Counted from the stretch's first letter, positions 52,695 through 63,927 are shown. The stretch is 64,000 nt of DNA from Natrinema sp. HArc-T2 (GCF_041821085.1 NZ_JBGUAZ010000009.1:1-64000), one strand, 5' to 3'. Made by a program: numbers and translations. The notes: generated from the letters alone by a model not told the origin.

Positions 52695-54125
52695 GTGCCA
52701 ACGTTTGGCCGAACACAATCTGGGAAATGGCACATCGTCGGGCCTGATGGATGTCGATACGGACGAGCATTTGCTGATGAGACAGAGAATTCGCCAGATA
52801 AGTCCATCACAGCAACAGATATTGTCGCATACGAACCGCCCGAATCACCAGACAGTACTCAATCTCGCTCGATGTCACTCTCCTCGAGAGAGGGTTCCCT
52901 TCTACAGGGTCAGACCACTGAGCAGCGCCTGGTCTTTCCGACTGACATTCGTGAGAAGAGCCCTGACGTGTGTGAGTCATGCCGCCTGCAACTAGAACAT
53001 CAGCAGAAGCGGCGGTCACAAGTCATCACTCAACTCAAGCGAGTGACGCCGATTCGTGACATCGATTGGGAGGTGGTTGAAGAAGAGACTAGACGTCCCT
53101 GTGACTGGTGCCGCGCCCACGAACTCACGGCATGGCACAGTAGTGACCTCAACTGTACGGTCTGTCCAGCCTGTGGTCGGATCTTCGAGACACCACTCGG
53201 TGAGCCAACTGCTGAAAATGCGCCAGAAGAAGATCTCCTGCCGGAAACGCCAACAGAGCCGATTGAACCGATTGTATTGGGAGCAACACTCCCAGACTAC
53301 GATCCTATCGAACTGGTCGGGAGCAATCGTCCACTGATCAAACACCGCGAAAAGAACAAATATGCTGAGCTGGTGCTTGAACTCGAGCGGACCGGCCATG
53401 CGTTCTCAGCCGATGGGATCGCTGCACTCGAGGAGATTCGTTCGAACTATGCAGACCAAGTTGCTGACGACACCGCCCACCAGACTGATGTCACGTTAGA
53501 GATTGGTATGACGCCGCGTACGGTAACGATCAAAGGGATATTTCCCGAGGATAGTTCATCGGTGATCGGAACGTGTTGGGATATCGTGAGCGATCCGACC
53601 AAGTGGTACCCAATCGGATGGCCGGAGCAAGGATGGATCCACCGCCGGTCAGCTGATCCCTCTATTCCTGGTGACGAGCCCGTTGTAGACGCATTTCCTC
53701 GTCTCCAAACACAGACACCATCTCAATCAGTCGATCTCGAGACGCTTCGAGAAGTAACCGAGCCAGCCCGCTATGAGCGAGGAAGCCGCTACTACGAACG
53801 TGGATCTGTGACTGATCTTGAGTACGTAGACGATACTCTCCAAGCAACAGTCCAGGGGAGCCGTCCATACGATGTCCAAGTTATACTCTCACAAGGAAGC
53901 TATGTCAGCGGCCAATGTAGCTGTCCTGATGATGCAGTGCCGTGTAAACATATCGTAGCAGCCGTGTTGGCTAGCGGTGACGTCGAAGCCGTCGGTGGTG
54001 ATCAATCGCTAGATACTCTCCTTGCAGCGGCGTCCGCTGAAGAACTTCGGAGTGTGCTTACTGAGGTCGCGGACGAAGACATAAGGCTCCGCAAGCGCCT
54101 CTATGAGGAATTTGGCGAAGACTGA
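52695..54125 (+). CDS. SWIM zinc-finger protein
   Basis: 476-aa protein with several Cys pairs. CESCRLQLEH (about residue 90), CDWCRAHEL (about 137) and CTVCPACGRIF (about 154) could form one or two zinc sites. The C-terminus has a SWIM motif CSCPDDAVPCKHIVAAVLA (about 430), a CxCx(n)CxH zinc fold that binds DNA or protein. Related domains accompany recombination/repair proteins and transposases. Start GTG at 52695; the open N-terminus beyond it is not needed. Function unknown, perhaps nucleic-acid handling together with XPB-Bax1. Confidence 0.8.
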   Translation: MPTFGRTQSGKWHIVGPDGCRYGRAFADETENSPDKSITATDIVAYEPPESPDSTQSRSMSLSSREGSLLQGQTTEQRLVFPTDIREKSPDVCESCRLQLEHQQKRRSQVITQLKRVTPIRDIDWEVVEEETRRPCDWCRAHELTAWHSSDLNCTVCPACGRIFETPLGEPTAENAPEEDLLPETPTEPIEPIVLGATLPDYDPIELVGSNRPLIKHREKNKYAELVLELERTGHAFSADGIAALEEIRSNYADQVADDTAHQTDVTLEIGMTPRTVTIKGIFPEDSSSVIGTCWDIVSDPTKWYPIGWPEQGWIHRRSADPSIPGDEPVVDAFPRLQTQTPSQSVDLETLREVTEPARYERGSRYYERGSVTDLEYVDDTLQATVQGSRPYDVQVILSQGSYVSGQCSCPDDAVPCKHIVAAVLASGDVEAVGGDQSLDTLLAAASAEELRSVLTEVADEDIRLRKRLYEEFGED

Positions 54126-54133
54126 GGAGAATA

Positions 54134-54526
54134 TCACGCTGGCGCAACATCGGAAGAGTGCTGGCCGATAGGAAGGTCGATATCGATCTCATCGTACCAC
54201 ACAACCGGACGCTTTGCGCGACCGTTTTGCTCGAGTTCGACGAGTCCGTAGTCGGCAAGCTCGGTCACGTTCTCAGTGACTTCTGGCGGATGACGGCCGA
54301 CAATTCGCGCGAGTTCACGAATACTGTCTGGCTCATGATCAGCGATCGCCTCGAGGAGTTCGAGATTCGTCGGCCGAAAGATTCGACCGAACGTCTCGAG
54401 GTCCTCCACGGAGAGCGTCGACGGCTTGGGGTCGACACTCTCGCCAGCATCGAGAGCGGCAAGCGTGTCTTCGAGATCGCTACGGTCGGACGACGAGTTG
54501 ATACGGACGTGAAGTGTTTGGGTCAT
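54134..54526 (-). CDS. Winged-helix DNA-binding protein (HVO_A0114-type)
   Basis: 130-aa protein with a winged helix (LELLEAIADHEPDSIRELAR, then HPPEVTENVTELADYGLVEL and ENGRAKRPVVWYDEI). The N-terminal strand region is like the haloarchaeal HVO_A0114 group, which often sits beside small toxin-like partners. The gene is preceded by a 45-aa ORF on the same strand. Regulator of a small operon; the target is unknown. Confidence 0.75.
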   Translation of the reverse strand: MTQTLHVRINSSSDRSDLEDTLAALDAGESVDPKPSTLSVEDLETFGRIFRPTNLELLEAIADHEPDSIRELARIVGRHPPEVTENVTELADYGLVELEQNGRAKRPVVWYDEIDIDLPIGQHSSDVAPA

Positions 54527-54544: not shown

Positions 54545-54682
54545 TTACCAGTCGGTTCGTTTGGCGAACGGAAGTGCCGAACGCCAAGCACGATACAGCG
54601 TCTGCAGTCCCGGATAATCGGCCTCGTAGGAAGATTGCGATTCCACTTGTGATTCAAGAAAATTGTTCAAATCTATTCTCAT
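54545..54682 (-). CDS. Tiny hypothetical protein upstream of the winged-helix gene
   Basis: 45-aa ORF (MRIDLNNFLESQVESQSSYE, then ADYPGLQTLYRAWRSALPFA). It ends 18 nt before the next gene start, so likely co-transcribed. It could be a truncated toxin-like partner, because a longer partner is common at this position. Unrecognised; moderate. Confidence 0.45.
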   Translation of the reverse strand: MRIDLNNFLESQVESQSSYEADYPGLQTLYRAWRSALPFAKRTDW

Positions 54683-55073: not shown

Positions 55074-55283
55074 ATGTCTAAACAAACTAGTCAACCTTCA
55101 GAACCAGCTTATTGGTGGATTGGTTATGTCATGCTTTTTGGCTTCCTATCTGCTGTTATTTCTATAACTCTCCAATCAGGTGTTTTTCCACATCCAGTTC
55201 CAAATTCGATCCTGAATATAATCGGATACAGTGGTATCTTTCTGATCCTGGTCGCGTTTTTCATCCAAATATTGCTTGAGTGA
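55074..55283 (+). CDS. Small two-helix membrane protein (2)
   Basis: 69-aa protein with two hydrophobic helices (YWWIGYVMLFGFLSAVISIT; IIGYSGIFLILVAFFIQILL) and a Pro-rich loop. AT-rich codon use compared with neighbours. No family recognised. Confidence 0.55.
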   Translation: MSKQTSQPSEPAYWWIGYVMLFGFLSAVISITLQSGVFPHPVPNSILNIIGYSGIFLILVAFFIQILLE

Positions 55284-55501
55284 TTAATATTTTTCTCACC
55301 TCCTGTTATTCTCAACCTCTCAATATCTAACAGGAAAACCTCGCACCCAATATTGTACTTTTGACGTTAAAATCTGACTTCAATAGTATCTGTGTACCTT
55401 CTGGTGACTAAGCTTTTAGAAGATAACACTACTTCGGGTTGCAGTTGGTTTCATGGTGGTTTTATAGTAGGGGTTTAGTTAAACAGATAGGTGTATTCTC
55501 T

Positions 55502-57373
55502 ATGAGTGCTGGGACTGAATTAGTTGCTCTCGTCGTAATCATCTTAGGGTTGGGTGTTGCTTCACAGGTATTAGCTGACCGCTTGGAGATTCCCAGTGTA
55601 CTCTTTCTCATTCTCGCAGGAGTTGCTGTTGGGCCTGAAGGGGCTGATCTTGTTGGATTAGAATCGTTCGGTGGTCCCGGTCCTCTCTCAGCGATTGTTG
55701 GACTGTCTGTCGCAATTATCGTCTTTGAGGGTGCGTTCCACCTAAAGCTTACAAAACTCCGGCAGACACCGCGTGAAGCGATTCGGTTGATTACAGTGGG
55801 TGCACTCATTGCTCTTGTTGGGACAGCTGCCGTTGTCAGATTCGCGCTCAATGTCTCGTGGGAGTTGTCGTTTCTTGTTGGCTCACTCCTCATCGCGACT
55901 GGTCCGACAGTCATCACACCAATTTTGGATGTTGTCCCGGTCCGAGATCGCGTCGCAGCAGCGCTCGAAACGGAAGGGATAGTTAACGATGTGACCGCAG
56001 CAATTTTAGCTGTCGCTGTCTTCGAAATGGTTGTTTCTGAGGAGACCGGGATACAGGTGTTAGTCGAAGAATTTGTTTCCCGACTTGGGATTGGTCTCCT
56101 CATCGGTGTCCTGGCAGCGGGGTTCCTCTGGTATCTCCTCAACCACGTTGATCTGTCTCCGTCGAATGCAGTCCGGAATTCACGACTAATCGTTCTCGTT
56201 GGAGCGCTTGCCACCTATGGAATCGCAAACACGATTATCACAGAGGCAGGTATTGCGGCGGTTGCAACAGCAGGGCTACTCCTTGGAAATGCTGGAGTCC
56301 CCTATGAGGACGAGATTGAGGCGTTCAAGGGCGATATCACGCTGATCGTTCTCTCATTTGTCTTCATCTCACTTACGACGCTCCTCTCTCTCGAGGATCT
56401 CTTTTCGCTTGGAGTCGGTGGTGTTGTCGTCGTCCTCGCTGTAATAGCAGTCATTCGCCCTGTTTCAGTGCTCCTCTGTACGCACGGAGAACAGTTCTCG
56501 TTCCGTGAGCAACTGTTCATGAGTGTCGTTGGTCCACGGGGAATCATCCCGGCAAGTGTAGCGACGCTCTTTGCACTTGAACTCCGATCATCGAACCCCG
56601 AAGCGGCGACTGTTCTCGTTGGAACTGTGTTTCTGGTGATTCTGACAACGGTTATTTTCGAAGGAGGGTTTGCCAGGCATATCGCACAAGCACTCAAGGT
56701 ACTACCAATGCGCGTAATCATTGTTGGCGGTGGTCGTGTCGGTCGCGGCCTCGCCGAACGGCTGGAGGATCGTGGTGAAAATGTTATTCTTATCGATGAT
56801 GATCAGGATAAAGTCGAGACGGCACGGAACGCTGGGTTCACTGTCTACCATGGCGATGGGACAGATATATCGGTTCTGCAATCTGCGGGCGCGGCGAATG
56901 CGAAAATTGTCGCTGCGGCAACGGGTGACGATGACACAAATTTACTCATCGCTCAACTGGCAAACTCGAAGTTTGACAGCGAGACAGTCATTGCTCGGGT
57001 GAATACACCGGGTAACGCCGATGCATTTGAGGAGTTGGGTGTGCGAGCAATTGCAGCTGACGAATCGATCGCCCAGTCCATGGATAATGCAATTGAACGG
57101 CCTGCTCTCTCGGAGTGGATGACTGAACTCGGTCGATCCGGCGACGTTCAAGAAATTGAAGTAACATCCGAAAAACTGGTCGGCAAATCGATTCGCGAGC
57201 TCGATCAAGAGCTCCCAGATGGCGTCTTAGTCGCACTCGTCAGTCGCGATGGTGAGTCGGAAGTACCTGATGCAGACTTGGTTCTTCAACACGGAGACCA
57301 TCTCACGTTCGTCGGTCGGCGAAACGCGGTTCATGAGGCACTCGAGCAGTGCCACCCACACCTTCGTACCTAA
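55502..57373 (+). CDS. CPA-type cation/proton antiporter fused to RCK (TrkA-N/TrkA-C)
   Basis: 623-aa protein. The first ~395 residues are a membrane antiporter domain of about 11-12 helices with GVASQVLADRLEIPSVLFL and GPTVITPILDVVP/EGIVNDVTA, the CPA1/NhaP-type core. A TrkA-N (RCK) domain starts MRVIIVGGGRVGRGLAERLE with a GxGxxG nucleotide site, followed by a TrkA-C-like domain (EVTSEKLVGKSIRELDQEL). Start at 55502 was chosen because an earlier start adds a non-conserved piece. Likely exchanges Na+ or K+ for H+ under NAD(H) or nucleotide control. Confidence 0.9.
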   Translation: MSAGTELVALVVIILGLGVASQVLADRLEIPSVLFLILAGVAVGPEGADLVGLESFGGPGPLSAIVGLSVAIIVFEGAFHLKLTKLRQTPREAIRLITVGALIALVGTAAVVRFALNVSWELSFLVGSLLIATGPTVITPILDVVPVRDRVAAALETEGIVNDVTAAILAVAVFEMVVSEETGIQVLVEEFVSRLGIGLLIGVLAAGFLWYLLNHVDLSPSNAVRNSRLIVLVGALATYGIANTIITEAGIAAVATAGLLLGNAGVPYEDEIEAFKGDITLIVLSFVFISLTTLLSLEDLFSLGVGGVVVVLAVIAVIRPVSVLLCTHGEQFSFREQLFMSVVGPRGIIPASVATLFALELRSSNPEAATVLVGTVFLVILTTVIFEGGFARHIAQALKVLPMRVIIVGGGRVGRGLAERLEDRGENVILIDDDQDKVETARNAGFTVYHGDGTDISVLQSAGAANAKIVAAATGDDDTNLLIAQLANSKFDSETVIARVNTPGNADAFEELGVRAIAADESIAQSMDNAIERPALSEWMTELGRSGDVQEIEVTSEKLVGKSIRELDQELPDGVLVALVSRDGESEVPDADLVLQHGDHLTFVGRRNAVHEALEQCHPHLRT

Positions 57374-57466: not shown

Positions 57467-57670
57467 TTATTGACGTGTTCCACGATAAATAATATATAAT
57501 ATGAAAAATAGTATGTAGATGATTGCGCCTCCAGACGTGAGGACCGACCGTCCCACGACAGCAATAAAGAGAATGAGCAGTGGGCCGACAAGCAGCAGTA
57601 CATCGAAGACCCGATCCTCAGCGCCTGCCTCAAGGAGGTCTCCGACGACCGGGAAGTCACGAAGATTCAT
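57467..57670 (-). CDS. Small membrane protein coupled to TrkH
   Basis: 67-aa protein with a MNLRDFPVVGDLLEAG start at 57670, two hydrophobic helices and a basic C-terminus. It overlaps the TrkH stop (ATGA), so it is the last gene of the trkH transcript. Possibly an accessory subunit of the transporter. Family unknown. Confidence 0.7.
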   Translation of the reverse strand: MNLRDFPVVGDLLEAGAEDRVFDVLLLVGPLLILFIAVVGRSVLTSGGAIIYILFFILYIIYRGTRQ

Positions 57671-59217
57671 TGGTAAATCCCTCCACGACGGAAGAGTGCT
57701 CGGAGTGTTACCAACACGGGGATAATCTCGAGGCGACCGATCCACATATTGAACAGGAACATGAGTTTCCCAAGCGTCGGAAGCGACTCCGGCCCGGTGA
57801 TGCCCGCGGAGAGGCCGACGTTGCCCTGAGCGCTCGCAACCTCGAAGATGACGTTCTCGAGGGTGTACTCTCCCTGTGGAAGTATCAGGAGAAGCACAAA
57901 CATCCCAATGCCAAGGAAGACAAACCAGAGAAAGCCGATAATGGCTGCTTCCTCGAACTCCTGACGGACTTCCCGTTCGTCGAGCCGGCGACCGTTGATT
58001 TTCAACCGGCGAACTGCTGTCTTAGGATAAAAGACATCCGTGATACGGAATCGGATTCCCTTTAATAGCGTGAGAGCCCGGATGAGCTTAATTCCGCCGA
58101 CTGTCGACCCAGCTGCACCGCCGACAATCATCCCGAAAACCACCGTGAGCTGGGCCTGTGCTGGCCACCGGCCAAGCGCGACGTTCGTCGAGTCGACTGC
58201 AGTCTGGAAGCCGGCGCAGGTCGCCGCCGAGACGAACTGGAAGGAGCTGTAACGAAACGCCGTAAACAGGGTGTCATACGTTTCGGTGACGTAGACGAGC
58301 GCGGTAAGAGCGAGCGTGCCAGCGCTCATGTAGATGAATACCCATCGAGTCTGGAGATCCGTATAGAGGTTTCGGAGGTCGCCTTGCAGGATGAGATAGT
58401 GCACCGGAAACGCGATACTACCGAGCAGCATGATCGGCAGGAGCGCGAAGTCGATAGCGGCGCTGTCATAGGTGGCGATCGAATTGTCGGTAATCGAGAA
58501 TCCACCAGTTGATAAGCCAGTCATCGCGTGGTTGATTGCGCCCCAGAGAGGCATCCCGACAACCCAGAGTAACAGGATCGAGACGAATGTAAAGAGGAGG
58601 AAGATCCACCAGATCGTCTGCACTGTGGAGACGATACTCGGATGAATCCGTTCGGATCGCGCTTCGCTCTCATAGAGCGTCAGTGACCCACTGCCAGGGC
58701 GGGCGAGGATCGCCGTCGTCAGGACGATCACGCCGACGCCACCGACCCACTCGATGAACGATCGCCACCACTGCAGCGTCCGTGGTAAGACCTCCTCGTT
58801 GTCGGTCATCGTCAGGCCAGTCCCGGTAAAGCCGCTCATACTCTCGAAGACGGCGTTGAGTGGATTAGTAAACGCCGCGAGTGTCTCCGTCTGTGCCGGC
58901 GTCTCGAGGACTGGGAGCCCAAGCTCAACGGTCCACGCAATGAGGAGGAACGGGACCGATCCGAAAAGCGCGACACAGAACCAGCCCGTCGCGGCGATGA
59001 TCATCCCGTGTAGCTTACCAGGCTGGGTCGCTTCCTCAAACGTCGACGCCAGGGCATAGCCGATACCAAGCGGGAGCAACCCGGAGACGACAAGAGCCGG
59101 AATCACATAGTATTCTCCCCAGACAAGCGGGACAAGCAGGGAAACGAACAGTAATCCGGCCAGCGCTTGGAACATGCGCCCTAAGTCTCGGCTGATCGTT
59201 TCCATCGCTTCGTTCAT
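57667..59217 (-). CDS. trkH: TrkH-type potassium uptake channel (1)
   Basis: 516-aa membrane protein with the four-fold K+-channel-like repeat. P-loop selectivity segments read SGFTGTGLTM, LSTGGFS, TCAGFQTAV and AQGNVGLSAG. Needs a TrkA/RCK partner, and a trkA gene (59345-60031) lies upstream. Start ATG at 59217. K+ uptake for salt-in osmoadaptation is the expected role. Confidence 0.92.
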   Translation of the reverse strand: MNEAMETISRDLGRMFQALAGLLFVSLLVPLVWGEYYVIPALVVSGLLPLGIGYALASTFEEATQPGKLHGMIIAATGWFCVALFGSVPFLLIAWTVELGLPVLETPAQTETLAAFTNPLNAVFESMSGFTGTGLTMTDNEEVLPRTLQWWRSFIEWVGGVGVIVLTTAILARPGSGSLTLYESEARSERIHPSIVSTVQTIWWIFLLFTFVSILLLWVVGMPLWGAINHAMTGLSTGGFSITDNSIATYDSAAIDFALLPIMLLGSIAFPVHYLILQGDLRNLYTDLQTRWVFIYMSAGTLALTALVYVTETYDTLFTAFRYSSFQFVSAATCAGFQTAVDSTNVALGRWPAQAQLTVVFGMIVGGAAGSTVGGIKLIRALTLLKGIRFRITDVFYPKTAVRRLKINGRRLDEREVRQEFEEAAIIGFLWFVFLGIGMFVLLLILPQGEYTLENVIFEVASAQGNVGLSAGITGPESLPTLGKLMFLFNMWIGRLEIIPVLVTLRALFRRGGIYQ

Positions 59218-59344: not shown

Positions 59345-60031
59345 TCATTTGGTTCTGTCTTCGGTATGACCGAATACATTGGTCAGTTCGGGAGCAGCGC
59401 CAAACGCCGAATAGACGGTCAGTAGATCACCGGCTTTGATCTCCATCCCGCCTTTTGGGGTAAGTGGTGAGTCCTGTCCTTCGCGCTCGATCGCAACGAT
59501 TAGAACGTCGTCAGGGAGAACCTCCTCTTCCGCTGCCTCGACAATCGTTTTGCCATCGATTGGAGAATCTTCGGTAACAGTGATCTCGAAGACTTCTGCC
59601 TCTTCGCCGATTCGCATATAGTCGACGATCGCCGGTCGAGCGACCGCGCGGTAGAGATATTCGGCGATGAGCTCCTGTGGGTTCTCCATCGTATTGACGC
59701 CAATCTGGCGAAACACGTTCATGTGCTCGGGATCGTGCACAACTGAGACGACTGCTGGTACCTCGTGTTCCTGCGCGAGCAGACAGACCATGATATTGGT
59801 TGCGTCTCGGTCGGTCGTGCTGATTAGAGCGTCTGCTTCTTCGATACCGGCATCCATGAGTACCCCATGGGCCGTCGCATCGTCATTGAGAACCAGACAA
59901 TCGTACTCACCGGCAACCCGATCAGCTCGTTCTTCGTCGTTCTCGATGACGACGACTTCGTTGCCCGACCGAGTCGTGATGTTGATCAGTGGCGTTCCAA
60001 TATCTCCTGCTCCAACGATGAGAATATACAT
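59345..60031 (-). CDS. trkA: TrkA K+ regulatory protein (RCK)
   Basis: 228-aa cytosolic RCK protein. TrkA-N starts MYILIVGAGDIGTPL with the GxGxxG nucleotide site; a TrkA-C domain follows (FEITVTEDSPIDGKTIVEAA to DLLTVYSAF). It gates a TrkH channel by sensing NAD(H)/ATP. Lies 127 bp upstream of trkH on the same strand, so likely one transcription unit. The next element upstream is a broken Usp gene. Confidence 0.92.
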   Translation of the reverse strand: MYILIVGAGDIGTPLINITTRSGNEVVVIENDEERADRVAGEYDCLVLNDDATAHGVLMDAGIEEADALISTTDRDATNIMVCLLAQEHEVPAVVSVVHDPEHMNVFRQIGVNTMENPQELIAEYLYRAVARPAIVDYMRIGEEAEVFEITVTEDSPIDGKTIVEAAEEEVLPDDVLIVAIEREGQDSPLTPKGGMEIKAGDLLTVYSAFGAAPELTNVFGHTEDRTK

Positions 60032-60037
60032 GTATAC

Positions 60038-60292
60038 TTATAACTCGAGTCGCTGCATGATCACTTCCCGAATCGACATGGGAGACTCCTCTGGCCTACG
60101 TGCCATCATGACTGTTCCGTCTGTTTGTTCGCCAATGCTCTCCACAAGGGAGCCATTGTCTTTTCTACGGCATGGATACCTGTGACGCGGTGGAACTGAT
60201 AGCGTTCGAAGATAGCTGCTATGTCCCGTGCGTTCGCCTCGTCGGAAACTGGAACAACGTGGTACAGAGATACACTCTACAAGAATTTGCAT
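60038..60292 (-). pseudogene. Frameshifted universal stress protein remnant
   Basis: One minus frame reads VVPVSDEANARDIAAIFERY, then QFHRVTGIHAVEKT (about 60260-60160), matching Usp N-terminal layout. The other frame reads SLVESIGEQTDGTVMMARRP (about 60155-60095) and ends at MQRLEL. No frame spans both, so one or more frameshifts broke a Usp gene located just before trkA. An intact relative is at 61682-62131. Confidence 0.55.
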
Positions 60293-60299
60293 TAGCAGA

Positions 60300-60650
60300 T
60301 CACTCTCTCAAATCTCCGATAAATGACCAGTTGAGGGTTTCTTCGCCATCTGGATGTCTCTCCCGAGTTACATGGTAGAGTGAAACAAGAGACGAATCGC
60401 CGTCGGAATCGTCCGTGTCAGGAGACCGCATTCGGACTAACGTGTATACTCCCTCATCCTCTATCGAGAGGACATCCCCTTTTGCTTCTTCGCGGATCTG
60501 TTGCTCTAGCGGCGGATGAGCCTCTTCAAGAAGCTGCTCGGCATATTCATGTACTGCGTGAAGTTCTGGTGGCTCAAGGGTATCCAGTTGCTCAACAAGG
60601 GCATCCGGGAGCTGCTCTGTGGGTGATCGTCCGTCGTCTGAATTGCTCAT
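60300..60650 (-). CDS. Haloarchaeal hypothetical protein
   Basis: 116-aa acidic protein starting MSNSDDGRSPTEQLPDALVE. A helix with LDTLEPPELHAVHEYAEQLL and a beta-containing C-terminus (GVYTLVRMRS, SLVSLYHVTRERHPD). Unrecognised family, frequent in haloarchaea by style. It precedes the Usp remnant and trkA on the same strand. Confidence 0.6.
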   Translation of the reverse strand: MSNSDDGRSPTEQLPDALVEQLDTLEPPELHAVHEYAEQLLEEAHPPLEQQIREEAKGDVLSIEDEGVYTLVRMRSPDTDDSDGDSSLVSLYHVTRERHPDGEETLNWSFIGDLRE

Positions 60651-60881
60651 ACATGGACCCCTATTCTGGAAAGCAAAATAACTTCCGCTGGATTTACGGA
60701 TTCGTTCTCTTAATCGCGGCAATCTTTCTTATCGTTTAACGCCCTCGAGGTGACGTGTTCCCAGTGAAATCCCTACTTATCCATCAGACAGCATCGCATC
60801 TTTGGTGTGGTCGATGCTGTTTCCAATCGAGAACAAAAGTCAAGTTAAATGCCGAAAGGGAGCCAATTGTCTCGTATAAGT

Positions 60882-61622
60882 ATGTCCAAAGGTATCGATG
60901 AGATCGATGAGGAGATACTGTATTATCTTACGCGGGAGGGTCGTCACACGTCTGCACCAGATATCGCTGAGAAAGTAGATGTCTCTGCTCCGACTGTCCG
61001 TAATCGGATTCGCCGTCTCGAAGAAGATGGGATCATTAAGGGCTACCATGCTCATGTGGACTACGAGCGAGCCGATGGCCGATTAGCAAATCTGTTCACC
61101 TGTACCACGCCAGCGACTGATCGGCAGGAACAGGCCCAGCGGGTGCTTGATATTCCTGGTGTTATCAACGTCAGAGAGATCATGACTGGCAAAGGAGATC
61201 TCCAAATCAAGGTCGTCGGGATGGATACCGATGACCTCACACGCATCGCACAGGATATTACAGCTCTCGGTATCGAAATTGATGATGAGGGCCTTATTCA
61301 CAGAGAATATGTCCGCCCATACGCTCAGTTCGGTCCTCGGGAAAAGGAACCAATTTCGCCAGTAACCGGTGTTGCAGGTCTTGCTGGAGATGCAGATGTA
61401 ATCGAAGTCATCGTGAAGGAAGGTGCACCAATCACTGGCAAAACGCTCCAACAAGCCAACGAAGAGGGCCTCATTCCCGCAAGCGTACTGGTGGTGAGAA
61501 TTGATCGGGATGATCAGGCCATCACTCCAACAGGAGAGACCATAATCAGAGAGGATGACTTCGTGACGATTCACTCGCGATCGGGAATCACTGATGATAC
61601 CTTAGAGGTGTTCACTGGCTAA
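60882..61622 (+). CDS. Lrp/AsnC-type regulator fused to an RCK_C (TrkA-C) domain
   Basis: 246-aa protein. N-terminal winged helix: IDEEILYYLTREGRHTSAPD and VSAPTVRNRIRRLEEDGIIK; an AsnC-type ligand-binding region follows (FTCTTPATDRQEQAQRVLD, VREIMTGKGDLQIKVVG). The C-terminal domain is TrkA-C-like (VIEVIVKEGAPITGKTLQQA to DDFVTIHSRSG). A DNA-binding protein with the ligand-sensing domain of K+ channels sits between trkA and the second trkH, so it probably regulates K+ uptake genes. Start at 60882 begins the Lrp N-terminus. Confidence 0.88.
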   Translation: MSKGIDEIDEEILYYLTREGRHTSAPDIAEKVDVSAPTVRNRIRRLEEDGIIKGYHAHVDYERADGRLANLFTCTTPATDRQEQAQRVLDIPGVINVREIMTGKGDLQIKVVGMDTDDLTRIAQDITALGIEIDDEGLIHREYVRPYAQFGPREKEPISPVTGVAGLAGDADVIEVIVKEGAPITGKTLQQANEEGLIPASVLVVRIDRDDQAITPTGETIIREDDFVTIHSRSGITDDTLEVFTG

Positions 61623-61681
61623 TTTGGCAGTGTAATTGAGGTACCCAACTGTTATGCTGTGTGTTATCTTCCTTCTCTTGT

Positions 61682-62131
61682 ATGGGAAGTATACCTGACT
61701 CCTCTCATGGTAGCCTTCTTGCACATGTTCTTGTTCCGGTCGCAAACGAGAACGATGCCGAGAAGACAGCGATGGCGCTTGAACCGTACGATCCAGACAA
61801 GGTGACAGTGCTCCATGTTGTCGAAAAGGGAAAAGGCGTTCCAGATAAGACACCCGTTGAGCAATCCGAAAACATCGCTGCAGAATCGTACGCCGCTGTC
61901 CGCAGCGTATTCCCTGATGCTGATGAACACACTGCTTATGCTCGAGATGTCATTGACGCCATTTTTGAGGCTGCTGCTGAGATAGATGCGAGCGCTATTG
62001 CGTATCGTTCCCGTGGTGGAAACCGAATCATGCAGTTTCTGTCGGGAGATCGCTCGCTCAAACTCGTTACCCAAGCTAATCGGCCCGTCATCGCATTGCC
62101 GCAGGCAGATGGAGACATGTCAGCCGAGTGA
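61682..62131 (+). CDS. Universal stress protein-like protein
   Basis: 149-aa Usp-type protein ([20 protein letters not shown]). The nucleotide-loop reads [20 protein letters not shown], not the classic G-2x-G-9x-GS/T, so ATP binding is uncertain. It is between the Lrp-RCK regulator and the second TrkH, as is typical of Usp genes near K+ transporters. Start MGSIPDSS at 61682. Confidence 0.82.
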
Positions 62132-62219
62132 TCTCACACTCCCGGCGTCTCAACGACAGCCAAACAGCCGATTACGGAGTGAATCGACGGTGGGTCGTTC
62201 AGCCCAATAACACAGGAAT

Positions 62220-63758
62220 TCACCGCTTCCAGAAGCTACCAGTGAACAGCACGAGCACGGGGATGATCTCGAGGCGACCGATCCACATGAGAAAGACCAT
62301 GACGAGCTTCGAGCTGTCTGGGAACAGAAAGTAGCTTCCATAGGGTCCAACTGAGCCGAATCCGGGGCCGATGTTGCCGATCGTCGCGAGGCTGGCACTG
62401 AAGGCCTCGAGCGGCGTCAGCGTGTAGCCAATACGACTGGCATCAAGCGCGAGAAACAGCGTCGCAATGGCGAAAATAAAGAGATACATGAACGTAAATC
62501 CGAGGACGCCGCGGATAGCATCTTCGTCGACAACGTTTCCACCCAGGCGAATCGGCCGGACGACCTCGGGATGGGAGGCCGTAAACAGCTCTCGTCGGAG
62601 GACCTTGAGGACAATTAGCCACCGGACGACCTTGACACCACCACCGGTCGAGCCAGCCGAACCGCCGACGAGCATGGCAAAGAGGAGGACGATCTTCCCC
62701 GTCGAGGACCACTCGACGAAGTCGCTGGTCGCGTAGCCGGTCGAGGTCAGCAACGACGCGATCTGGAAGGCGCTCTGTCGCAACGAGTTCTCGAGGACAC
62801 CCTCAGTGACGCCGCCAAGGCCCGCAAGCGCCGGTGCGGTGCCAGAGTAGAGCATCCCGGCGAGGAGGACGGTGAGACCAGCGATCGCGGCGATGTAGGC
62901 GCGAAACTCGGAGTTGCGAACGAAGCGGTGGCCCTCGCCGCTAAAGACGTGCCAGAACAGGGCGAAGTTCGTCCCAGCGATGATCATGAAGGGGATTGCC
63001 GTCCACTGGACAATCGCAGAAAAGGCCGCGACGCTGTCGGCCTCTGGGGAGAACCCGCCCGTCGGGAGTGTTGTAAACCCGTGGGCGATGGCGTTGTACA
63101 GCCCCATGTTGGGGGCCATCCCCGCGAGATGAAAGCCATAGAGCAATGCAATGTAGACCGCGGTAAAGGCGAAGTAGACGAGCCAGAGGATCCGCGCCGT
63201 TTCGGCGATCCGCGGCGTCAGTTTTTGTAACTCCGGGCCGGGCGCTTCCGACTCGATGAGCTGGGCACCGCTGACAGCGACTTCCGGGAGGATCGCGACC
63301 ATCAACACGATGATCCCCATCCCGCCGAGCCACTGGGTGAGCTGTCGCCACATCATCACGGCGTGGGAGTGCCGTTCCAGCGAGATTTCCCCGAGGACGG
63401 TCGCCCCAGTCGTCGTGAAGCCGGACATTGACTCGAACAGCGCGTTGACGGGATCGGCAAGCGTCGACTCGGTCCCCCAGCCCGCGAGTACGTACGGGAC
63501 CGCGCCCACGGCGGCGACGGCGAGCCATGAAATCGCGACAAACAACATCGCTTCCCGGATCTGCAGGTTCGGCTCGACCTCGAGCTGCTCGAGGCCGTAA
63601 CCGACGGTGATCGTCAGTGCAATTGTTGCGATGAACGGGAACAGGGGATCGCCGTAGATGAGCGCCACGACGATTGGGATCACTAACGGAACGGAGAGAT
63701 ACTTGAGAACGGTCCCAACGAGCGCGAAGCTGGCGCGCCAGTCAGTTCGCAGCCGCAT
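62220..63758 (-). CDS. trkH: TrkH-type potassium uptake channel (2)
   Basis: 512-aa paralog of the 57667 gene. P-loops read SGFTTTGATV, TLPTGGFS, LTSTGYAT and TIGNIGPGFG. Start MRLRTDWRASF at 63758 was chosen over an in-frame extension to 63845. It lies convergent to the Usp-like gene and would need RCK control; the trkA at 59345 and the Lrp-RCK gene are candidates. Confidence 0.92.
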   Translation of the reverse strand: MRLRTDWRASFALVGTVLKYLSVPLVIPIVVALIYGDPLFPFIATIALTITVGYGLEQLEVEPNLQIREAMLFVAISWLAVAAVGAVPYVLAGWGTESTLADPVNALFESMSGFTTTGATVLGEISLERHSHAVMMWRQLTQWLGGMGIIVLMVAILPEVAVSGAQLIESEAPGPELQKLTPRIAETARILWLVYFAFTAVYIALLYGFHLAGMAPNMGLYNAIAHGFTTLPTGGFSPEADSVAAFSAIVQWTAIPFMIIAGTNFALFWHVFSGEGHRFVRNSEFRAYIAAIAGLTVLLAGMLYSGTAPALAGLGGVTEGVLENSLRQSAFQIASLLTSTGYATSDFVEWSSTGKIVLLFAMLVGGSAGSTGGGVKVVRWLIVLKVLRRELFTASHPEVVRPIRLGGNVVDEDAIRGVLGFTFMYLFIFAIATLFLALDASRIGYTLTPLEAFSASLATIGNIGPGFGSVGPYGSYFLFPDSSKLVMVFLMWIGRLEIIPVLVLFTGSFWKR

Positions 63759-63927
63759 CGAACACCCCACTCGAATAGTCACATATAGACATAGTTGTAA
63801 TGGCCTTTCGCTAAGGCCATAATGAATCCATCGTGACTGCCACAAGGTAAGCGAGGGAGTGCTTGGGGCTTGACCTCAAGTATGGTTGAGTGAAGGTTCT
63901 TTATGCGGCTCGTGTGTATTATGAACT

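Follow-up and report, generated by a model that had tools for sequence, protein, structure and literature searches.

A TrkA-type RCK_C domain on an Lrp/AsnC regulator beside haloarchaeal potassium uptake genes suggests a local trk switch

Haloarchaea keep molar K+ inside the cell. In this study we analyzed a stretch of 64,000 nucleotides from Natrinema sp. HArc-T2 (GCF_041821085.1, NZ_JBGUAZ010000009.1:1-64000; hereafter the window), which carries an Lrp/AsnC-type regulator fused to RCK_C, the sensor domain of the channel subunit TrkA, among genes of K+ transport. The architecture is already known. Trh2 (VNG1285G) of Halobacterium salinarum NRC-1 is a TrkA_C fusion Lrp for which K+ or NAD+ was proposed as the effector in 2014 (Plaisier et al., PMC4236453), and two TrkA_C Lrps of Haloferax mediterranei have been described (PMC8229911). 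Like the regulator of the window, Trh2 and the H. mediterranei pair are haloarchaeal proteins composed of a helix-turn-helix (HTH), a RAM-like domain and TrkA_C. As far as their accessible texts go, the accounts of Trh2-type proteins mention neither a trk neighborhood, nor the origin of RCK_C, nor an operator in trk promoters.

The working principle is known from a bacterial protein, BusR of Streptococcus and Lactococcus, which consists of a GntR-type winged HTH, a coiled coil and an RCK_C that responds to cyclic di-AMP (c-di-AMP). BusR and the regulator both have an N-terminal DNA-binding domain and a C-terminal RCK_C, and the targets of BusR are osmotic transporter genes, which resembles the role proposed here. 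In a Foldseek search, the full-length regulator model matched BusR over 259 columns (E 1.8e-5). However, the regulator has an AsnC HTH, with no GntR match above the cut-off, and a RAM fold with a low-confidence linker replaces the coiled-coil ruler. As BusR belongs to a different domain of life, the similar architectures are probably convergent. TrkA and KtrA gating-ring subunits share the RCK_C fold, and the close kin are haloarchaeal single-RCK TrkA proteins; unlike them, the regulator has an HTH in place of the RCK_N Rossmann domain. The RCK_C of CpaA (5f29 and 4ys2, both c-di-AMP complexes) was found by Foldseek and by a profile of the fusion RCK_C, although CpaA is part of a Na+/H+ antiporter-like protein.

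To these known features we add the linkage to trk genes, a sensor that probably stems from TrkA, and a candidate operator, none of which was found in the literature searched. That literature named no transcriptional regulator for haloarchaeal Trk systems, and the accessible parts of published Haloferax work on c-di-AMP named no receptor; the same regulator bears on both questions. We consider it fairly probable (about 0.6) that this Trh2-type protein is a local, divergently transcribed trk switch whose RCK_C reads the ligand of TrkA in a BusR-like manner. Its DNA binding and its ligand we infer. Because the regulator has the sensor domain of the channel itself, lies beside the channel genes in many genera and has a candidate operator, the idea of K+ control is directly testable.

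The regulator and its domains are as follows.

60882-61622, plus strand: Lrp-RCK_C fusion regulator (open reading frame, ORF, opens at 60849)
60894-61040, plus strand: AsnC-type HTH, ORF residues 16-64 (HTH_24 E 4e-14; HTH_AsnC E 8e-10)
61083-61298 (limits approximate), plus strand: divergent RAM (ligand-binding) fold, from the AlphaFold2 (AF2) model and Foldseek
61389-61619, plus strand: RCK_C (TrkA_C) domain; Pfam match at ORF residues 184-241, 36.2 bits (cut-off 27), E 5.5e-9

The true start is most likely 60882 (MSKGIDE...), judged from the sequence, because similarity to orthologues begins there and a TATA-like element lies at ~60842. HTH_24, HTH_AsnC and TrkA_C are thus found in a single ORF, and the fusion is not a chance product because the combination recurs in many haloarchaeal genomes. 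A Pfam scan gave no TrkA_N match, that is, RCK_N is absent from the fusion. The RAM region reached 18.4 bits with Pfam AsnC_trans_reg, under the cut-off of 25. In the AF2 model (mean predicted local distance difference test score, pLDDT, 80), this region is predicted with good confidence to form a beta-alpha-beta-beta-alpha-beta fold, and Lrp proteins came first among the Foldseek matches of the full-length model. The low-confidence linker (residues 153-170) connects it to RCK_C, which was modelled with a pLDDT of 94.6. Structural matches of the RCK_C included TM1088B (query TM-score, TMq, 0.81) and the RCK_C domains of c-di-AMP-bound CpaA, BusR and KhtT.

We surveyed 117 genomes of the order and found matches to the Lrp part nearly universally, with full-length fusions in many families; four full-length Lrp-RCK_C genes are in the strain's own genome. 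Among 247 genomes of the phylum, a full-length fusion was found outside the order only once, which agrees with the restriction to haloarchaea stated by Plaisier et al. (PMC4236453). The outside fusion (G134:C2:7899-8624) matched the family profile with E 2.5e-74; the Lrp-RCK_C fusion may be older than haloarchaea, or may have been passed out of them.

The gene neighborhoods of 62 fusion loci were compared with those of 20 loci encoding the most closely related Lrps that lack RCK_C (plain Lrps), which came from genomes mostly also carrying a fusion. trkA or trkH lay within 5 kb of 38 of the 62 fusion genes and of none of the 20 plain Lrps (Fisher's exact test, P = 5e-7). Similarly, Usp genes were near 26/62 fusions and 0/20 plain Lrps. 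In a second, named set of loci, trk genes were present in 49/79. The neighborhood was retained across many genera despite rearranged gene orders. The K+ gene neighborhood that the original prediction had described for this locus proved to be conserved and specific to Lrps bearing RCK_C. Plasmid-borne fusions were frequent (53 records), and an annotated example with both trkA and trkH is on plasmid pHH400 of Haloarcula hispanica. Half of the plain Lrps had a stand-alone RCK_N (TrkA_N) protein beside the Lrp and a permease, and the order plain Lrp, stand-alone RCK_N, APC-Usp permease is a recurrent three-gene unit (L119-L138, e.g. L119:9709-12998). This Lrp clade therefore has ties to RCK domains also where no fusion exists.

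To trace the origin of the sensor, we built a maximum-likelihood tree from 125 RCK_C domains. The 64 domains from fusions all fell into one clade (support 98/86), together with one long-branch TrkA. The clade was nested within the domains of haloarchaeal single-RCK TrkA, in a group that includes TrkA1 of the window, and both RCK_C domains of two-RCK TrkA fell outside. Inner nodes were weak because the alignment was short (80 columns). A single capture of the sensor, from the single-RCK TrkA lineage that still adjoins the gene, is nevertheless the simplest reading and the probable one. Donation of RCK_C by the neighboring CPA-RCK antiporter was rejected, as the antiporter domain lay outside the group of TrkA and fusions.

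For candidate operators, we compared inverted dyads in the promoters of island genes with those in 533 upstream regions of other genes from the same loci. Six of 59 fusion promoters and none of the 533 other regions contained the exact dyad ATTT-N9-AAAT, and Markov-resampled promoter sets contained two at most. A palindromic 17-bp matrix (approximately ATTTTCG-N3-CGAAAAT) trained on fusion promoters matched, at a threshold of 10 bits, 29/59 fusion promoters and 11 of the 533 others (2%). A site was present in 3/20 plain Lrp promoters. In split-half tests, 41% of held-out fusion promoters exceeded the 98th percentile of the background. Among promoters outside the training, sites of at least 10 bits were found for usp (7/30, P = 1e-5), trkA (5/42, P = 0.004) and p140 (4/5); p140 heads the genes transcribed divergently from the regulator, and most p140 promoters overlap the DNA of a fusion promoter. 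Two candidate sites, neither assigned to a strand, lie in the divergent region of the window.

60663-60679: candidate operator ATTCTGGAAAGCAAAAT, which overlaps the p140 TATA-like element and lies 13-29 bp upstream of that gene
60818-60834: weaker second candidate site TGTTTCCAATCGAGAAC, 10.2 bits, 48-64 bp upstream of the regulator start

The site at 60663-60679, which belongs to the divergent p140-trkA-trkH promoter and was outside the training set, had the highest score in the 64 kb window (17.5 bits; next best 13.8), and its counterpart in a second island copy on contig C7 scored 17.7 bits. Of 17 orthologues from other species and genera, 11 had a site beginning at -216 to -224 relative to the start of the regulator (resampled mean 0.2). 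Of the two arms, the right one overlaps the p140 TATA-like element, and the left one (about ATTnCGG), between the TATA and the p140 start, is conserved too. The possibility that the motif is a mere TATA box was rejected only in part, on the grounds of this left arm and of the 2% matches in ordinary upstream regions, in which TATA boxes are to be expected. The C7 copy has the same site as that at 60818-60834, and so does one of the two Natrinema hispanicum copies. We also searched all contigs of the genome with a simplified palindrome (ATTNYBNNNNNVRNAAT) and obtained 45 sites, compared with 11 for the reversed control; it is therefore not unique to the islands. Six of the 45 lay in the two islands (about 0.3 expected by length), two of these six being from training promoters. 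Sites of this kind are thus in excess outside the islands as well, and may include targets of other Lrps. Strong matches to the motif at 55256-55272 (13.5 bits) and 54645-54661 (13.8 bits) are between an HVO_A0114-type regulator gene (54134-54526) and the CPA-RCK gene.

In the mechanism that we propose, the regulator would dimerize or oligomerize via RAM and RCK_C and would bind the palindrome-like element in the divergent promoter region that it shares with the p140-trkA-trkH genes. It would mainly repress the trk operon; repression is proposed because the element overlaps the TATA box, a placement that, on sequence grounds, suggests this mode. A ligand at the cleft of the RCK_C dimer would alter the affinity for DNA. 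The same ligand would probably act on the TrkA of the island, because the fusion RCK_C is sister to TrkA RCK_C, and one signal would then govern both channel gating and gene expression.

By analogy, c-di-AMP is the leading candidate for this ligand. The RCK_C domains of bacterial KtrA, CpaA and BusR bind it, and the genome of the strain encodes a diadenylate cyclase. The corresponding cyclase of Haloferax volcanii is essential, and reduced c-di-AMP leads to a low-salt cell-volume phenotype. We tentatively suggest, while holding it to be rather doubtful, an archaeal and independently evolved counterpart of BusR, in which c-di-AMP would set the K+ channel via TrkA and trk transcription via the captured RCK_C. 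If true, this would be a c-di-AMP-responsive archaeal transcription factor, apparently the first of its kind. K+ itself as the ligand of an isolated RCK_C found no support. The original prediction had suggested sensing of an ion or a nucleotide coupled to promoter control. The fusion, its neighborhood, the candidate operator and the full-length match to BusR agree with this; NAD(H) is an unlikely ligand, as RCK_N, the Rossmann domain that binds adenine nucleotides in TrkA and KtrA, is missing from the fusion. The idea had also been published before (PMC4236453).

Several observations weigh against a trk switch that reads the ligand of TrkA. No trk gene was found within 5 kb of 24 of the 62 fusions, and many of these adjoin APC-Usp permeases that resemble amino-acid transporters; the fusion family is therefore not purely a K+ regulator. 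The signal of trkA promoters depended on the threshold (P = 0.17 when 8 bits was used, and 0.31 in a rank test), and trkH promoters showed no motif signal (1/23 at 10 bits or more). When the matrix was retrained on resampled fusion promoters, it still yielded a mean of 19 sites and a maximum of 25 in 30 runs, compared with 29 in the real promoters; the motif is therefore overfitted in part. Part of the conservation of the site is due to the arm that overlaps the TATA-like element. As the loci are related by descent, the P values for neighborhoods and motifs are optimistic. The c-di-AMP pocket is formed by I163, D167, R169, N175, I176 and P191 in KtrA and by I153, N157, A164-I166 and P181 in BusR; no reliable residue-level alignment placed these contacts on the fusion. 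The sequence profile of the fusion RCK_C found neither KtrA nor BusR and reached only CpaA (E 5e-4).

Some of these observations would fit a regulator of osmolyte or amino-acid transporters, in which an ancestral Lrp ran APC-Usp permeases via RAM, RCK_C was a secondary input and trk genes were merely co-resident in an osmo-adaptation island. APC-Usp adjoined 34/62 fusions and APC permeases were near 13/20 plain Lrps, plain Lrps often precede a stand-alone RCK_N and an APC permease, the APC proteins resemble amino-acid transporters in the PDB, and the fusion has kept its RAM fold. Given the same PDB matches, a KimA-like role in K+ transport was not supported for the APC-Usp permease. However, the association with trkA and trkH is restricted to fusions, no APC gene lies among trkH1, trkA1, Lrp-RCK and trkH2 in the window, and RAM stays under the Pfam cut-off, and we regard this explanation as unlikely. 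Because plain Lrps share the APC neighbors, such neighbors say nothing particular about the fusion, and the APC neighborhood was dropped as evidence on the fusion's role.

RCK_C might also serve purely in dimerization or protein contact. The regulator would then bind to TrkA through the homologous RCK_C and relay the condition of the channel complex, needing no small ligand for itself. RCK_C domains do dimerize, that of the fusion is most closely related to the one in TrkA from these same islands, and ligand contact residues were not established for it. Docking is nevertheless improbable in our view, considering that 24 fusions have neither trkA nor trkH nearby and that BusR demonstrates that RCK_C on a DNA-binding protein can act as a ligand sensor. 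It seems very improbable that the palindrome serves only the regulator's own gene, or that the regulator has only a global role, with trk genes hitch-hiking as megaplasmid cargo. The frequent plasmid location and a motif that is strongest upstream of the regulator's own gene would suit such autoregulation. Against it, the neighborhood persists across many genera with rearranged orders and is absent around sister Lrps, and, within the divergent region, the window's top-scoring site lies next to p140. A local trk switch thus remains the reading that we prefer.

Every gene named in the original prediction, which had listed TrkH, TrkA, Lrp-RCK_C, a Usp-like protein, a second TrkH and a CPA-RCK antiporter next door, was recovered in the window by gene calls and Pfam. 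The island is more extensive than that list, with a conserved p140 and a decayed usp between p140 and trkA1 in addition. Its other genes are given below.

55502-57373, plus strand: CPA-family cation/H+ antiporter with C-terminal RCK_N and RCK_C (Pfam Na_H_Exchanger, TrkA_N, TrkA_C; ORF opens at 55439)
57667-59217, minus strand: TrkH1 K+ uptake protein (PF02386 E 1e-80)
59345-60031, minus strand: TrkA1, single RCK_N + RCK_C subunit (TrkA_N E 6e-28; TrkA_C E 2e-12)
60109-60276, minus strand: usp remnant between p140 and trkA1, interrupted frame (tblastn with Usp homologues E 6e-10)
60300-60650, minus strand: p140, small acidic protein without a Pfam match (ORF opens at 60722)
61661-62131, plus strand: Usp-like protein 3' of the regulator, true start probably ~61715 (PF00582 E 5e-7)
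62220-63758, minus strand: TrkH2, probable start 63758 (PF02386 E 4e-68; ORF opens at 63845)

Beyond the end of the window the island goes on with TrkA2 (64278-65018) and TrkH3 (65137-66687). Contig C7 (12.5-25.7 kb) carries the rearranged, near-identical copy, which comprises Lrp-RCK_C (96% identical to the regulator of the window), TrkA, two TrkH, a second TrkA and CPA-RCK. C7 also has a second Lrp-RCK_C (44% identical) adjoining an APC-Usp permease. Natrinema hispanicum DSM 18328, which likewise has a second copy, encodes a regulator that shares 99% identity with that of the window over the protein.

The decay of usp is common to the window and the C7 copy. In many orthologous islands usp is retained, in the order p140-usp-(APC)-trkA-trkH divergent from the regulator, and comparison of these sequences suggests that this was the ancestral order. 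p140 was near the fusion in 30 of the 79 named loci, and its homologues are mostly located near the fusion or related Lrps. Homologues in other genera (L145, L146, L147, L160) end in a C-terminal zinc ribbon (CxxC...CxxC), which Natrinema p140 lacks. Another zinc motif in the window, a SWIM-like CxC...CxH, lies close to the C-terminus of a 476-aa protein encoded at 52695-54125.

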